A stretch of 64,000 nucleotides of DNA from Catenuloplanes niger. Its GTDB lineage: Bacteria > Actinomycetota > Actinomycetes > Mycobacteriales > Micromonosporaceae. The translations under genes and the position numbers were made by a program. Where the stretch lies: contig NZ_JAVDYC010000001.1 in the NCBI RefSeq assembly GCF_031458255.1, positions 2,799,001 to 2,863,000 of the forward strand. The letters run 5' to 3'. The notes under the pieces are model-generated. The model did no database searches. It was not told the DNA's origin and saw only the letters and a program-made list of their open reading frames with translations. How positions within the stretch are numbered: the first letter of the stretch is position 1; each line of letters begins with the position of its first letter. Shown piece by piece: positions 10,749 to 21,931 of this stretch.

Positions 10749-10872
10749 TGCCTCGATGTTCGCCGGCCCTGCGCGACGGGGTCGACGCGATTAATCCGCG
10801 CAAGGAGGCGCGATTCCCACAACCGCTGTGTTACGGATTGACGGCGAAAATGACAAGACGAAGGAGGACACC

Positions 10873-11961
10873 GTGAGCCAGACAGTCCGCGGGGTTATCG
10901 CTCGCGCGAAGAACGCAGAGGTCGAGGTGGTCTCGATCGTCGTTCCCGACCCGGGTCCCGGCGAAGCGGTCGTGAGGATCCAGACGTGCGGGGTCTGCCA
11001 CACCGACCTGCACTACAAGCAGGGCGGGATCAACGACGACTTCCCGTTCCTGCTCGGTCACGAGGCGGCCGGCACGGTGGAGTCGGTCGGCGCGGGCGTG
11101 ACCGAGGTGGCTCCCGGCGACTTCGTGGTGCTCAACTGGCGCGCGGTCTGCGGTGACTGCCGGGCCTGCCGCCGGGGCAAGCCGCAGTACTGCTTCGCCA
11201 CCCACAACGCGAAGCAGCCGATGACGCTGGAGGACGGCACGCCGCTCTCGCCCGCGCTCGGCATCGGCGCGTTCATCGAGAAGACGCTGGTCGCGGCCGG
11301 CCAGTGCACGAAGGTCGACCCGGCGGCCCGCCCGGCCGCGGTCGGCCTGCTCGGCTGCGGCGTGATGGCCGGCATCGGCGCCGCGATCAACACCGGCGGC
11401 GTGCAGCGCGGCGACTCGGTCGCGGTGATCGGCTGCGGCGGCGTCGGTGACGGCGCGATCGCGGGTGCGGCGCTGGCCGGCGCGACCACGATCATCGCGG
11501 TCGACACCGACGACCGGAAGCTGGAGTGGGCCAAGGGCTTCGGCGCCACCCACACGGTCAACGCACGCGAGGGCGACGTGGTCGCGGCGATCCAGGGGCT
11601 GACCGGCGGCTTCGGCGCGGACGTGGTGATCGACGCGGTCGGCCGCCCGGAGACCTGGAAACAGGCGTTCTACGCCCGCGACCTGGCCGGCACCGTGGTG
11701 CTGGTGGGCGTGCCCACGCCGGAGATGAAGATCCCGGAGATCCCGCTGCTGGACGTGTTCGGCCGCGGCGGCGCGCTCAAGTCCAGCTGGTACGGCGACT
11801 GCCTGCCGACCCGCGACTTCCCGATGCTGACCGAGCTCTACCGCCAGGGCCGGCTGGACCTGGACGCGTTCGTCTCCGAGGAGATCGGCCTGGAGCAGGT
11901 CGAGGAGGCGTTCACCAAGATGCACCGCGGTGACGTCCTCCGCTCGGTGGTGGTCCTCTGA
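10873..11961 (+). CDS. mscR: S-(hydroxymethyl)mycothiol dehydrogenase (formaldehyde detoxification)
   Basis: GTG 10873 follows AAGGAGG (10861-10867). This 362-residue zinc-dependent alcohol dehydrogenase (class III-like MDR) has catalytic zinc ligands in CGVCHTD and GHEAAG, a structural zinc loop [15 protein letters not shown], and a Rossmann motif [14 protein letters not shown]. The overall sequence is that of the mycothiol-dependent formaldehyde dehydrogenase family. It oxidises the spontaneous mycothiol-formaldehyde adduct with NAD to S-formylmycothiol; nitrosomycothiol reduction is also known for the family. It overlaps the next gene by one base, the same pairing seen for Mycobacterium tuberculosis Rv2259-Rv2260. 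Confidence 0.92.
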
Positions 11962-12590
11962 TGCCGGCCCGCATCGACCACACGGTCACGTCCGGCACGT
12001 TCTCGCTGGACGGTCAGACGTTCGACGTCGACAACAACGTCTGGGTGCTCGGCGACGACACCGAGTGCGTGGTGATCGACGCCCCGCACGACGTCGACGC
12101 GATCCTGCGGGTGGTCGGCGGCCGCACGGTGAAGGCGATCCTGGCCACGCATGCGCACGACGACCACGTCCGGCGGGCTCCCGCGCTGGCGGAGGCGACC
12201 GGCGCGCCGATCTGGCTGCACCCGGACGACCTGGTCGTCTGGCGGCTCACCCATCCGGACGTGACGATCGACGGCGAGCTGAGCGACGGCCAGACGATCG
12301 AGGTGGGCGGCGTCGCGCTGCACGTGTTGCACACGCCCGGCCACGCCCCTGGCGCATGCTGCTTCCACGTACCCGCGCTGGGTGCGGTCTTCACCGGGGA
12401 CACGCTGTTCCAGGGCGGCCCGGGCGCGACCGGCCGCAGCTTCAGCAGCTTCGACACGATCGTCGAGTCGATCCGGACGAAGCTGCTGACCCTGCCCGCG
12501 GAGACGGTCGTGCACACCGGGCACGGCGACAGCACGACCATCGGCGCCGAGGCACCCCACCTCGACGAATGGCTCAAAAGAGGGCATTGA
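11961..12590 (+). CDS. MBL-fold metallo-hydrolase paired with mscR
   Basis: This 209-residue metallo-beta-lactamase-fold protein has the zinc motif HAHDDH (about residues 62-67), then HTPGHAPG, GVFTGDTLF-like AVFTGDTLF and HTGHGD. Its start codon overlaps the mscR stop (TGATG), so the two are translationally coupled. The Rv2260-like family always accompanies mscR, and a thioesterase role on S-formylmycothiol is a reasonable inference but not proven from sequence. A dispersed repeat copy begins eight bases after the stop. Confidence 0.85.
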   Translation: MPARIDHTVTSGTFSLDGQTFDVDNNVWVLGDDTECVVIDAPHDVDAILRVVGGRTVKAILATHAHDDHVRRAPALAEATGAPIWLHPDDLVVWRLTHPDVTIDGELSDGQTIEVGGVALHVLHTPGHAPGACCFHVPALGAVFTGDTLFQGGPGATGRSFSSFDTIVESIRTKLLTLPAETVVHTGHGDSTTIGAEAPHLDEWLKRGH

Positions 12591-12704: not shown

Positions 12705-12908
12705 TCAGTCCGGTGGCTCCTGCGACGCGCCGGCGGCCTCGACCGACGTGCGGTGCTCGACGAACGAGTCGGGCGCCGCCGTCGAGTCGGCCGTCCGCTC
12801 GTCCGACTCCAGCAGGATCTCCTCCGCCTGCGCCTCCACGTCGTCACTGCCGACGCGACGCTCCTCGGGCAGCAGCGACGCGGCCCGGCTCTCCACCCGA
12901 TCAGTCAT
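12705..12908 (-). CDS. Small acidic protein of unknown function
   Basis: This 67-residue frame starts with ATG at 12908, preceded on the minus strand by GAGAGGGAC (a good ribosome-binding site). The protein is hydrophilic and Glu/Ser-rich (AASLLPEERRVGSDDVEAQAEEILLESDERTADST), with one likely amphipathic helix and a disordered tail. I do not recognise a domain. It lies convergent to the metallo-hydrolase and divergent from the aroG leader. Codon bias and the ribosome-binding site support it as a real gene; a signalling or stress role cannot be inferred. Confidence 0.6.
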   Translation of the reverse strand: MTDRVESRAASLLPEERRVGSDDVEAQAEEILLESDERTADSTAAPDSFVEHRTSVEAAGASQEPPD

Positions 12909-12997
12909 GTCCCTCTCGTACCCACGAAGAGGGTGTTCAGTCACCATCACGACCCTGATGGCAGACGAGCGGCGCCGGACGCGGTAAGGTATCCGGC

Positions 12998-13063
12998 GTG
13001 ACGAAGTCCTTTTATTGGTTTGGGTGGCCGGCCCTGAGCGCCGGTGACTCGACCCTGGTCTGA
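12998..13063 (+). CDS. Aromatic-residue leader peptide of the DAHP synthase gene
   Basis: GTG 12998 opens a 21-codon frame ending TGA 13061-13063. Residues 5-10 read FYWFGW, so all three aromatic amino acids lie within six codons, which is very unlikely by chance in this GC-rich genome. The frame lies upstream of a rho-independent terminator and the aroG gene, the arrangement of a ribosome-stalling attenuator. An AAGG lies eight bases before the GTG. A possible -10 (TAAGGT, 12985-12990) would place transcription start near the GTG, so leaderless translation is also possible. Confidence 0.82.
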   Translation: MTKSFYWFGWPALSAGDSTLV

Positions 13064-13185
13064 CGTCACCACAGCCTTCAGAGAGCCGGCAAGGGCAGGG
13101 AGCTTCTTCCCTGCCCTTTTCGCATGCGACAGAACACGCTGCCCGGCTCTCCAGGTCACCGGCCCTGGGGCGGGCCGGTGAAAGG
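13025..13185 (+). promoter_or_regulatory. Transcription attenuator with alternative RNA structures upstream of aroG
   Basis: Several mutually exclusive pairings are visible. CCGGTGAC (13041-13048, inside the leader frame) can pair with GTCACCGG (13155-13162), and CCGGCCC (13028-13034) with GGGCCGG (13172-13178). GAGAGCCGG (13081-13089) can pair with CCGGCTCTC (13143-13151), which encloses the terminator. CACCGGCCC (13157-13165) and GGGCCGGTG (13172-13180) form a hairpin directly before the AAAGG ribosome-binding site of aroG. Ribosome stalling at the FYWFGW codons would change which pairs form. The mechanism is inferred from the layout. Confidence 0.7.
13091..13120 (+). terminator. Intrinsic terminator within the aroG leader
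   Basis: AAGGGCAGGGA (13091-13101) pairs perfectly over 11 bp with TCCCTGCCCTT (13108-13118) across a GCTTCT loop, and TTTT ends at 13120. It lies between the leader peptide and aroG, so read-through must be regulated for aroG to be expressed. Confidence 0.85.
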
Positions 13186-13194
13186 AAATCTGCA

Positions 13195-14271
13195 ATGACG
13201 TCCTCACAACGGGTCACCGATCAGCGGATCGACAAGGTCGTTCCGCTGATGACCCCCGACCTGCTCCACCACCACCTGCCGTTGAGCGAGGAGCTGGCCG
13301 ACCGCGTGGTCGAGGGCCGCCGCGCGGTCGCCCGCGTCCTCGACGGCGAGGACGACCGGCTGATCGTCGTGGTCGGCCCGTGCTCGGTGCACGACCCGGC
13401 CGCCGCGCTCGACTACGCCCGCCGGCTGCGCCCGGTCGCCGAGCGGCTCTCCGACGACCTGCTGATCGTGATGCGCGTCTACTTCGAGAAGCCGCGCTCC
13501 ACGGTCGGCTGGAAGGGCCTGATCAACGACCCGGCGCTGGACGGTTCCGGAGACGTCAACACCGGCCTGCGCGTCGCCCGTCAGCTGCTGCTCCAGGTGC
13601 TGGAGCTGGGCCTGCCGGTCGGCTGCGAGTTCCTCGACCCGATCACGCCGCAGTTCATCGCGGACACCGTGGCCTGGGGCGCGATCGGCGCGCGCACGGT
13701 GGAGAGCCAGGTGCACCGCCAGCTCTCGTCCGGCCTGTCGATGCCGATCGGCATGAAGAACCGCCCGGACGGCGCGATCAGCACCGCGATCGACGCGATC
13801 AACGCGGCCGCCGTGCCGCACGTGTTCCCCGGCATCGCGATGTCCGGTACGCCGGCGATCCTGCACACCCGCGGCAACGCGGACTGCCACCTGGTGCTGC
13901 GCGGCGGCAACGACGGCCCGAACTACGACGCGGACTCGGTCGGCGGCGCGCTGGCGCTGCTGCGCAAGGCCGGCCTGCCGGAGCGGTTGATCATCGACTG
14001 CAGCCACGCGAACAGCGGCAAGGACCACCGCCGCCAGCCGCTGGTGGCCGCGGACGTGGCCGAGCAGCTCAAGGCCGGCAACCGGGGCATCTCCGGCGTG
14101 ATGCTGGAGTCGTTCCTGGAGCCGGGCCGGCAGGAGCTGGACCCGACGCGCGAGCTGACCTACGGTCAGTCGGTCACGGACGCGTGCCTCGGCTGGGAGC
14201 AGACCGAGCCCGTGCTCGACCTGCTCGCGTCCGCGGCCGCCGCCCGCCGCGCCGCGGTCGCCGTCGCCTGA
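13195..14271 (+). CDS. aroG: 3-deoxy-7-phosphoheptulonate synthase, class I (AroG/F/H type)
   Basis: This 358-residue enzyme of the shikimate pathway condenses phosphoenolpyruvate and erythrose-4-phosphate. The class I signatures are present: VVGPCSVHDP, MRVYFEKPRSTVGWKGLINDP, GCEFLDPITPQ, WGAIGARTVESQ(V)HR, GMKNRPDG, ILHTRGNADCHLVLRGG and IIDCSHANSGKDHRRQ. Actinobacteria commonly use the unrelated class II enzyme, so this class I form may be an additional, separately regulated isoenzyme. It starts at ATG 13195 after AAAGGAAA. Expression is probably controlled by the attenuator upstream; a 12-bp hairpin follows the gene. Confidence 0.93.
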   Translation: MTSSQRVTDQRIDKVVPLMTPDLLHHHLPLSEELADRVVEGRRAVARVLDGEDDRLIVVVGPCSVHDPAAALDYARRLRPVAERLSDDLLIVMRVYFEKPRSTVGWKGLINDPALDGSGDVNTGLRVARQLLLQVLELGLPVGCEFLDPITPQFIADTVAWGAIGARTVESQVHRQLSSGLSMPIGMKNRPDGAISTAIDAINAAAVPHVFPGIAMSGTPAILHTRGNADCHLVLRGGNDGPNYDADSVGGALALLRKAGLPERLIIDCSHANSGKDHRRQPLVAADVAEQLKAGNRGISGVMLESFLEPGRQELDPTRELTYGQSVTDACLGWEQTEPVLDLLASAAAARRAAVAVA

Positions 14272-20110: not shown

Positions 20111-20780
20111 TGGTGTCTCCGGTTGCCGCCGGTCACCACACCGCGTTCGCCGCGTTGGCTCCCCCGCCCCCGGGGAAAGACGATCTCCGGAGTTCCGTGG
20201 CGTGAACTCCGAGGATCACGTGATGCGTCAGTGCGCACTGCGAGAAAGTCCGCGCTGCGAGAAAGTCACTGGGTAACGGTGCTTCCCTTGCGGGAGAACC
20301 CTGAGACCTCCCTAACAGCCATACTCCCAACCGCGTGCCACTAATGGGAAGAGGGCAATCTGCCAGGTGGCAGATTTCCACCCGTCAGGTAGGGCCCGGC
20401 ACCCGTTTTCCCGGCGCATTTCTCCGCATTTGCCCGAGAGGCGAGGTCCCTGAGACTCGCCCAAACACGCAAAGGGCCCGTTTCGGGTACTGCCCACCGC
20501 AATTGCACGGAGCGGTTACTTGAGGGAATCATTCCTTCACTCTGAGCTATCTAGATATTTGCCCTATTACCGGCGAAAGCCCACAGATGACCGCCGTCAC
20601 CCTTTCGATCCTCCGAAATGGTCGTTACCGTGGGTTGGCCGGACCTGGTCTTCAGTCACTCCCCCCGGAATGACGCCAGCCCGGCGCCGCCGAATCGCCC
20701 GGCCTCGGCCGTCGGTGCTCCCCCGCACCGTTCGTGCCAGGCGCGCCGATCGCCGGCCGTGCCGGGCCCACCCGACGCGG
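20111..20780. other. Long non-coding region upstream of the c-di-AMP riboswitch
   Basis: No gene is supported. Features noted are an unusually AT-rich patch at about 20515-20580 (likely promoter DNA) and the palindrome at 20357-20376. Short open frames here have no ribosome-binding site and atypical composition. Confidence 0.5.
20357..20376. promoter_or_regulatory. Palindromic CCAGGTGGCA operator-like site
   Basis: AATCTGCCAGGTGGCAGATT has 9-bp arms around GG. Its core CCAGGTGGCA is the same as in the three sites upstream of the tandem XRE genes (17249, 17278, 17395), so the same regulator may bind both regions. Confidence 0.55.
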
Positions 20781-20904
20781 TCTTCGACCGGTGTCGCGGC
20801 GAACCGGGGACCCACAGAGTCCCACCGGGGTGAATCCGCGCTCGCGCGGTAGGGCGTCCTTCTCGCCCGAATCCGTCAGCTAACCCGGTAGGCGGCAGCG
20901 AAGA
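20781..20904 (+). ncRNA. c-di-AMP riboswitch (ydaO/yuaA type)
   Basis: The conserved core is recognisable: GAACCGGGGACCCA, then CCGGGGTGAATC, a variable hairpin, TAGGGCGT, and CCGAATCCGTCAGCTAACCCGGTAGGCGG. The outer stem P1 is TCTTCG (20781-20786) with CGAAGA (20899-20904). The class senses cyclic di-AMP and in actinobacteria usually precedes cell-wall hydrolase genes, as here. The P1 3' strand overlaps the AAGAAGGG that would serve as ribosome-binding site for the gene at 20918, so ligand-stabilised folding could block translation (inference). Confidence 0.92.
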
Positions 20905-20917
20905 AGGGTCCACCCCG

Positions 20918-21931
20918 TTGTCAGCTTCGCGTGCGATCCTGCGCGCTGTCGTGCTGGCGGCCGTTGCGGTCGGCGTTCTCGCGCCGACCTCCGCTGCCCT
21001 GGCCGAACCGTCAAGCGCCGAACTCACCAAGCAGATCGACAAGGCCTCCCATGAGCTGGAGGTCGTGATCGAGTCCTACAACAAGATCAATGAGGAACTG
21101 AAGGCCACCCAGGCGGCGGCCAAGGAACTCAGTGAGAAGACCGCCACGCTGGAGCAGGAGGTCAAGGAGGCCAGCACCAACGTCGGCCAACTGGCCAACC
21201 GCGCCTACAAGTCCGGGCGGTTCAGTGACGCGAACACGCTGCTCACGCTCAGCGACAGCCAGGATCTGATGGCCGGTCTCAGCGTGCTCGAGCAGCTGGC
21301 CCAGGCGCGCAACGACGAGGTCGCCGCCTACACGGCCACCGAGGCGAGGTACGTCGAGGAGAAGGCCAAGCTCGACGCCGCCGAGAAGAAGCAGAAGGCG
21401 CAGAAGGACGAGGCCGGCAAGCGCAAGGCCGGCATCGAGGGCGAGCTGAAGAACCTGTACTCGCTGCGCAAGGCCGCCTACGGCCGGGAGCAGGAGCAGG
21501 CAGTCGCGGCGCCGGTCAGCAACGGTGGCGGCAACAGCGGCGGCGGTAGCAACAGCGGCGGTGGCGGTGCCGCGCCGAGCGCACCCGCCGGGTCGAGCGC
21601 CGTGGTGCAGTTCGCCTACGCCCAGCTCGGCAAGCCCTACATCTACGCCTCCGCGGGACCGACCGGTTTCGACTGCTCCGGCCTGGTGAAGGCGGCCTGG
21701 GCGAAGGCCGGGAAGTCGCTGCCGCACAACGCGGCCATGCAGTACAACTCGACCGCGCGGATATCGGCCTCCCAGGTCGTCCCGGGAGACCTGGTCTTCT
21801 ACAACGGGCTCGCGCACGTCGCGATCGCGATCGGCGGCGGCAAGGTGATCCACGCGCCCAGACCGGGCGAGGTGCTCACGATCGCGCCGCTCAACATGAT
21901 GTCGATCGTCGGGTACGGCAGAGTCAGATAG
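20918..21931 (+). CDS. Secreted NlpC/P60 peptidoglycan hydrolase with coiled-coil domain
   Basis: This 337-residue protein has a signal peptide (RAILRAVVLAAVAVGVLAPTSAALA, cleavage near residue 29). A long coiled-coil region (about 33-190, LTKQIDKASHELEVVIESYNKINEELKATQAAAKELSEK...) is followed by a Gly/Ser linker and an NlpC/P60 endopeptidase domain (about 225-337). The catalytic Cys is in FDCSG (about residue 251), with His in LAHVAI (about 299) and a third polar residue in IHAPRPG. It cleaves peptide stems of peptidoglycan, with the coiled coil probably autoinhibitory or FtsX-binding as in RipC-like proteins. TTG 20918 is the start that gives the signal peptide. Confidence 0.92.
   Translation: MSASRAILRAVVLAAVAVGVLAPTSAALAEPSSAELTKQIDKASHELEVVIESYNKINEELKATQAAAKELSEKTATLEQEVKEASTNVGQLANRAYKSGRFSDANTLLTLSDSQDLMAGLSVLEQLAQARNDEVAAYTATEARYVEEKAKLDAAEKKQKAQKDEAGKRKAGIEGELKNLYSLRKAAYGREQEQAVAAPVSNGGGNSGGGSNSGGGGAAPSAPAGSSAVVQFAYAQLGKPYIYASAGPTGFDCSGLVKAAWAKAGKSLPHNAAMQYNSTARISASQVVPGDLVFYNGLAHVAIAIGGGKVIHAPRPGEVLTIAPLNMMSIVGYGRVR

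Follow-up and report, generated by a model that had tools for sequence, protein, structure and literature searches.

Short aromatic leaders ahead of DAHP synthase genes have a precedent in aroR, which Neshat et al. reportedly described in 2014 upstream of aroF in Corynebacterium glutamicum; the leaderless cysteine uORFs of mycobacteria are likewise said to have been treated by Canestrari in 2020. According to one review, AroR, a leader with Phe-Tyr-Phe, precedes C. glutamicum aroF, and transcription of aroF is raised by Phe limitation, with Tyr availability irrelevant (PMC11802643). Excerpts of other papers have aroF attenuated when Phe is present (PMC11525245), call AroR a translational regulatory leader that confers control by Phe and Tyr (PMC7356990), and place it among the small transcripts detected in C. 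glutamicum (PMC4046766). The mycobacterial cysteine uORFs are described as leaderless, and translation attenuation is reported for them in M. smegmatis (PMC13236596, PMC4633059). The accessible text of Seliverstov and others places conserved structures only before Trp, Cys and Leu/Ilv pathways, together with T-boxes before ileS (PMC1262725), and the eight leaders listed for S. lividans in a further excerpt include, as aromatic ones, two for Trp only (PMC8079986). How actinomycetes control entry into aromatic synthesis, a pathway that feeds many antibiotics, seems little described. In the literature searched, which covered few subscription journals, C. glutamicum had the sole recognised actinobacterial DAHP synthase leader, and no wider description was found.

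The DNA analysed here (the window) is a 64-kb stretch within a 9.74-Mb chromosome. It contains a gene whose product matches the TIGR00034 profile at 488.7 bits (cut-off 173.2) and is therefore a class I DAHP synthase. The gene and the elements ahead of it are as follows.

12985-12990, plus strand: -10-like promoter element TAAGGT, 7 nt ahead of the leader GTG
12998-13063, plus strand: leader peptide frame, GTG at 12998 to TGA at 13063, 21 codons plus TGA (VTKSFYWFGWPALSAGDSTLV), kept in relatives
13010-13027, plus strand: sensing codons F5 Y6 W7 F8 (G9) W10, that is, TTT TAT TGG TTT GGG TGG
13091-13120, plus strand: intrinsic-terminator hairpin and T tract, arms 13091-13102 and 13107-13118 with 11 pairs, TTTT at 13117-13120
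13180-13186, plus strand: aroG ribosome-binding site GAAAGGA
13195-14271, plus strand: aroG, class I DAHP synthase of 358 aa, matched by profile TIGR00034

The initial annotation of this DNA had proposed a 21-codon frame rich in F, Y and W, and such a frame is present, with F5, Y6, W7, F8 and W10 within VTKSFYWFGWPALSAGDSTLV. It stands alone among 1103 short frames in having at least five F/Y/W in six codons, in a census that took start-to-stop frames of 8-45 codons on both strands of the 64-kb window and counted nested starts separately. The surrounding region (12990-13215) folds better than 200 of 200 dinucleotide shuffles, with a z score of -5.0, and the distance from the leader stop to aroG is 131 nt. 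That an aromatic leader and a terminator precede a class I DAHP synthase gene is thus confirmed as an observation. Because TAAGGT lies only 7 nt before the GTG, the transcript that carries the aroG leader is likely leaderless, with its start at or next to that codon. Every one of the 132 distinct leaders has TANNNT 6-8 nt ahead of its start, 100 of them at 7 nt, a figure that is favoured because the leader finder rewarded the element and dropped frames without it; the background at the same spacing is 270 of 19,167 ATG/GTG codons. The leaders are recognisable even when the element is not used. The last codon and stop, CGC TGA, end 35 of 65 dissimilar leaders, though the rest of the tail varies.

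To place this element among its relatives, we compared the regions ahead of DAHP synthase genes across actinomycetes. The leader precedes 20 of 27 class I loci among 61 relatives; the other seven (L021-L027, with proteins 46-53% identical) are without it. A class II DAHP synthase was also found in 61 of the 61 genomes searched, the window's genome included, and the leader element therefore regulates a second, class I enzyme. Leaders of the window's family are the same as or similar to those of Micromonospora and Paractinoplanes loci, so the window very probably derives from the Micromonosporaceae. A nucleotide pattern built from the leaders hit 83 of the family's 200 genomes, and its backward control hit 2; it matched 0 of 5 genomes of the window's own genus, in which the aromatic codons are differently arranged. 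One genome of the family (G117) has two matches to the pattern, possibly two controlled copies or a fragment.

Wider sampling extended the set well beyond the family. Sixty regions hand-picked for variety included 43 with a leader and 17 with none. Eighty named loci comprised, by title, 27 actinobacterial and 53 other loci, and 23 of the actinobacterial ones were used; four actinobacterial class I loci (L093, L100, L122 and L124) had no clear leader. The resulting leader set, from which L008 was dropped, holds 142 records, which reduce to 132 distinct leaders once 10 repeats over 150 nt are removed and to 65 that are mutually dissimilar. It covers Micromonosporaceae, Mycobacterium, Rhodococcus, Nocardia, Williamsia, Gordonia, Tsukamurella, Amycolatopsis, Kribbella, Streptomyces and others. 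The comparison of actinobacterial aroG 5′ regions that had been proposed at the outset thus yields a conserved F/Y/W-rich frame together with covarying pairings. In one leader (L036) the sensing segment seems doubled (VSRWYSWLPTYSWFEWPAFAG...), so that leaders may gain sensor codons through duplication. Three non-actinobacterial loci (L113, L114 and L118) carry other aromatic frames (YFSFFSWYGYF, FYFYFFAF and FYFYFYGF, respectively) ahead of class I DAHP synthase genes, and these are perhaps independent inventions.

The choice of codons in the leaders is strongly skewed. Across the 132 distinct leaders, Tyr is encoded by TAT in 132 of 141 codons and Phe by TTT in 141 of 174, and the codon adjoining the downstream RNA strand that we call A is TTT in 129 of 132. 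In 61 DAHP synthase genes from the same loci, the corresponding counts are 1 of 314 for TTT and 1 of 312 for TAT, which makes both of them rare codons. Judging from these frequencies, rare TTT and TAT may be maintained either for slow reading or via another constraint on the nucleotides. The initial annotation had further argued that the gene answers to all three aromatic amino acids together, and this has partial support. Of the 132 distinct leaders, 127 have F, Y and W all ahead of strand A; however, one family outside the window's order (f34) lacks W there in 11 of its 16 distinct leaders, and the aroR reports, as far as their available text goes, conflict on whether the signal is Phe only or Phe and Tyr.

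Strand A is one of four RNA strands, inside and downstream of the leader, that have alternative partners.

13027-13037, plus strand: strand A (GCCGGCCCTGA), inside the leader, spaced 5 nt from the preceding Phe codon F8; B and C are its possible partners
13040-13048, plus strand: strand B (GCCGGTGAC), pairs with A and is complementary also to 13155-13163
13078-13090, plus strand: strand C (TCAGAGAGCCGGC), beyond the leader stop; its partner can be A, with C-side bulges, or D
13143-13151, plus strand: strand D (CCGGCTCTC), a look-alike of A that encloses the terminator when paired with C

A targeted search for F/Y codons placed exactly 5 nt ahead of the A motif found one in 142 of 142 records. 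Measured from the last F/Y codon to the first A motif, the spacing is 5 nt for 59 of the 65 dissimilar leaders; the other 6, in which motifs overlap, have 1-2 nt. When the GGC core of A is the reference point, the spacing is 8 nt in 42 leaders and 5 nt in 23, values that rest on a start of A sought solely at 5 nt behind an F/Y codon.

In the window, the duplex energies are -16.8 kcal/mol for A:C, -17.3 for C:D and -12.1 for A:B. The enclosing pair described in the initial annotation is there, with GAGAGCCGG (13081-13089) and CCGGCTCTC (13143-13151) forming nine perfect pairs at -17.3 kcal/mol. Across relatives, evidence for A:C comes from several directions. Specifically, with the register fixed on the core, the outer six A:C pairs gave 280, against 225.1 ± 6.3 when permuted (maximum 248 of 5000) and 234.6 ± 6.1 (maximum 259) when permuted within leader classes, both permutations ignoring relatedness; in L001, three of the six outer pairs form. 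A nine-pair A:C helix in 53 sequences has 85.0% of its cells paired, against 79.4 ± 0.7 in shuffles and 51.6% in the best slid register, and contains 27 compensatory cells, against 9.9 in shuffles. Changes on both sides were seen in two of these nine pairs, no more than in shuffles (458/500), and further pair types were at chance (404/500); slid by -1, A:C gives a slightly higher covariation score (0.127 vs 0.116). Large compensatory changes in the A:C core were rejected as a signal, being partly a one-codon register shift between two leader classes, and are superseded by the register-fixed test. When partners were ranked by duplex energy, own partners gave -35.4 and swapped partners -31.5, with a modest median rank of 11 of 65. 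Strand C against the leader gave -25.6 kcal/mol, compared with -14.4 for shuffled sequence, and was better in 41 of 41 relatives.

A covariance model of strands A and C, built from 53 sequences with nine pairs and applied at E up to 0.001, found one site apiece in 45 of 296 genomes of the class, with a second site in none of the 45. A class I DAHP synthase (55-100% identical) follows the site in 30 of 30 checked, out of these 45 genomes. The figure of 45 is a lower bound, because the model missed G272, the source of L182, and many genomes may lack the class I gene.

The pairing of C with D was scored in the same set of 65 leaders. At least 9 of 10 pairs form in 37% of them, as opposed to 4% after shuffling C and 19% when D was swapped within the same class, and at least nine pairs form in 50% of one leader class and 13% of the other; C was taken here as the best match to A and is consequently misplaced in some leaders. 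The alternatives A:B, A:C and C:D are thus all present, of which A:C covaries and C:D stands above both shuffles and swaps. For the clade of relatives that have no terminator (see below), RNAalifold chose C:D, not A:C, and reported no covarying pair.

These observations are consistent with a ribosome-operated attenuator that controls class I DAHP synthase and includes an exchange among A, C and D, and we consider this reading probable. We envisage that the transcript would begin at or beside the leader GTG, and that a ribosome would then read the aromatic codons. A shortage of Phe-tRNA, and perhaps of Tyr- and Trp-tRNA, would stop it with a rare TTT in the A site and, given the observed spacing, strand A would come to lie at or partly inside the front edge of the stalled ribosome. 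The position of the ribosome on A would in turn decide which of the alternative partners, A or D, is taken by C. In the order that we prefer, the stall would remove the short hairpin A:B and A would hold C, corresponding to ON; passage of the ribosome would let A:B re-form and C join D, corresponding to OFF. By analogy with the C. glutamicum relative, low aromatic supply would raise aroG.

Equilibrium folding speaks to parts of this scheme. A ribosome at the Phe codon or at the stop alters the choice among A:B, A:C and C:D. For the window's own sequence it gives A:B and C:D; C:D prevails whether the ribosome is absent, stalled or at the stop, and A:C is close to zero in all three cases. In the window's clade (26 dissimilar leaders), a stall gives no rise in A:C, with 6.7 expected pairs in the free state and 5.6 or 1.9 in the stalled state for two footprints; in two other clades a stall does raise A:C, but a ribosome at the stop does so too. 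The ON/OFF order is therefore offered as a proposal and is the weakest step of the mechanism, and folding of the window's own sequence does not bear it out.

How would such an exchange be read out? The 11-bp terminator ending in TTTT that had been noted at this site is borne out: the hairpin at 13091-13118 runs into the TTTT at 13117-13120 and has an energy of -22.1 kcal/mol as a duplex. A generic terminator scan, whose rule needs at least five T in eight, did not list 13091-13120. Among 26 aligned relatives, the terminator covaries, with 34 compensatory cells, and in the RNAalifold consensus of the aligned relatives all six covarying pairs fall within it. In the window, the output is probably transcription through the terminator.

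Given a terminator this strong and this well supported by covariation, attenuation might be purely transcriptional, with 13091-13120 as the sole output; a stall would then act via a competing antiterminator or via kinetics, as in trp operons, and C:D and the hairpin near the ribosome-binding site would be incidental. The available text on C. glutamicum, in which aroF transcription goes up when ribosomes stall at AroR codons under Phe limitation (PMC11802643), fits this account, and folding lends a translational output no support. However, the leader-paired strand is C, which lies beside the terminator, and the terminator 5′ arm has no partner above chance: between the Phe codon and C, its best partner gave -10.5 kcal/mol, against -10.4 for shuffled sequence, and beat the shuffled mean in 19 of 41 relatives (L170, L177, L205 and L208 were left out). 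The same figures lend a textbook antiterminator no support. The power of this statistic is limited; for E. coli trpL it is only modest, at -10.9 vs -7.7 ± 2.0. Moreover, of 65 dissimilar relatives, an automatic search assigned a terminator to 45, including 4 doubtful cases, and found it missing in 20, mostly Nocardia, Rhodococcus, Amycolatopsis and their kin, which nevertheless retain the leader, A and C. On balance, we regard a purely transcriptional mechanism as a credible account that we would not call probable. Treating the terminator as a switched helix in equilibrium folding was abandoned: its probability was 0.86, 0.86 and 0.87 across ribosome states (45 relatives, 4 of them doubtful), and the test is uninformative because E. 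coli trpL is equally flat, at 0.76 in all states.

The initial annotation had also suggested control at two levels, with translation as the second, on the basis of the enclosing pair and a hairpin over the aroG start region, and had noted pairing between the leader codons and the region of the ribosome-binding site. Both the hairpin and this pairing exist.

13157-13180, plus strand: hairpin CACCGGCCC/GGGCCGGTG, arms 13157-13165 and 13172-13180, -19.2 kcal/mol, directly 5′ of the ribosome-binding site

The leader segment GCCGGTGAC (13040-13048) is complementary to GTCACCGGC (13155-13163), and in 26 aligned relatives this pairing comprises 11 pairs that are 93% kept, with little covariation (4 cells). 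In the terminator-less clade, a hairpin around the ribosome-binding site scored 125 pairs, against 116.1 ± 2.3, a value reached in 0 of 5000 permutations that ignore relatedness. The same hairpin has five perfect pairs in 21 of 26 loci, several of them closely related, with a swapped rate of 0.46, and its score with six pairs was reached in 44 of 5000 permutations. This test, and the one on D that follows, left out L110 and L190. A pairing of D with the region before the ribosome-binding site in this clade, promising by eye and in a column scan, failed its permutation (65 vs 63.7) and was discarded. In scans of two clades the tail of the terminator, too, paired with the ribosome-binding site; T tracts match sites of this kind by chance.

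The case for two-level control is divided: the hairpin in the terminator-less clade covaries, but in equilibrium folding exposure of the ribosome-binding site did not change with ribosome position, so that simple sequestration of the site, as read from such folding, was set aside. Joint control of transcription and translation is possible, with weak support; translation is the likelier output in the terminator-less relatives. More broadly, we tentatively suggest a class-wide regulatory RNA that serves a single enzyme and whose leaderless aromatic frame would drive a terminator-independent exchange among A, C and D, with transcription as the output in some lineages and translation in others. 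As part of this three-strand reading, and held just as tentatively, the fixed Phe codon before A would make Phe the main signal, with Tyr and Trp secondary.

Because the residues that follow the aromatic codons are conserved across families, it is worth asking whether the peptide itself could be the sensor. Such a peptide (F..PA or F.EAP, then often GG) would take an aromatic metabolite as its ligand and stall in the exit tunnel, in the manner of TnaC. It is strand A, however, that encodes those conserved residues, and its nucleotides match C; the residues before the aromatic cluster vary; in addition, the peptide would have about ten residues, which is short for arrest in the exit tunnel. We therefore think nascent-peptide arrest unlikely. 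That the small frame merely delivers ribosomes to aroG by leaderless entry and reinitiation, with no sensing, finds a parallel in the leaderless small ORFs that the excerpted text calls common in mycobacteria (PMC4633059), but it leaves the aromatic clusters, the rare codons, the Phe-to-A spacing and the covarying pairings unexplained, would have to span the 131 nt between leader stop and aroG, and strikes us as very improbable.

Returning to the attenuator with its A/C/D exchange, comparison with known systems shows both kinship and departures. Like C. glutamicum aroR as its available descriptions present it, the element is a short aromatic leader before a DAHP synthase gene, described there as an attenuator; unlike aroR, with its Phe-Tyr-Phe and Phe response, most leaders here carry Trp codons too. 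L205, from a 2.4-Mb genome of the window's order, has an FYF leader MRMWRFYFSKAPEAETS together with strands A and C and a hairpin of the terminator type. We infer that the leader set is homologous to aroR, which is known here from published descriptions, and aroR appears to be the only studied member of a wide actinobacterial set of one architecture. With the trp-type attenuators (E. coli trpL, and the Corynebacterium and Streptomyces trp leaders in the accessible part of PMC1262725) the element shares an amino-acid-rich leader, alternative pairings and a terminator; in contrast to theirs, its leader-paired strand C is not part of the terminator, can pair instead with D downstream of it, and persists in the 20 of 65 relatives for which the automatic search found no terminator. 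The proposal of a ribosome-dependent aromatic attenuator thus survives in its conserved leader and covarying pairings; a textbook trp-type device finds no support, in that C, beside the terminator, is the partner of the leader. The mycobacterial cysteine uORFs, as far as the excerpts describe them, resemble it as leaderless regulatory small frames but serve another amino acid and other genes, and the likeness noted here concerns the frame. The cis-regulatory leaders in Rfam are the same kind of object, yet no family matches: nothing at the element lies above a gathering threshold, and two hits at E up to 1 fall far below their gathering scores.

What is new here is the breadth of the set, its leaderless frame, the constraints on rare codons and spacing, and the leader-paired strand beside, not in, the terminator. 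The element offers a starting point for tests and for engineering producer strains, and the forms with and without a terminator amount to a natural experiment in how a single sensor comes to have different outputs.

Several further observations concern the surroundings of the element. On the opposite strand, at about 12709-12909 (minus strand), an internal ATG of ORF 12705-13217 opens a small acidic frame (MTDRVESRAASLLPEERR...) that diverges from the leader; this ORF had no match in NCBIfam. Upstream of the leader lie, at 10828-12590, a gene for S-(hydroxymethyl)mycothiol dehydrogenase (TIGR03451, 683 bits) and, after it, one for a metallo-beta-lactamase-fold hydrolase. Elsewhere in the window, a c-di-AMP riboswitch (ydaO/yuaA, 68.6 bits, gathering 38) occupies 20779-20909 on the plus strand, directly before ORF 20918-21931, the end of which presumably resembles an NlpC/P60 cell-wall hydrolase.
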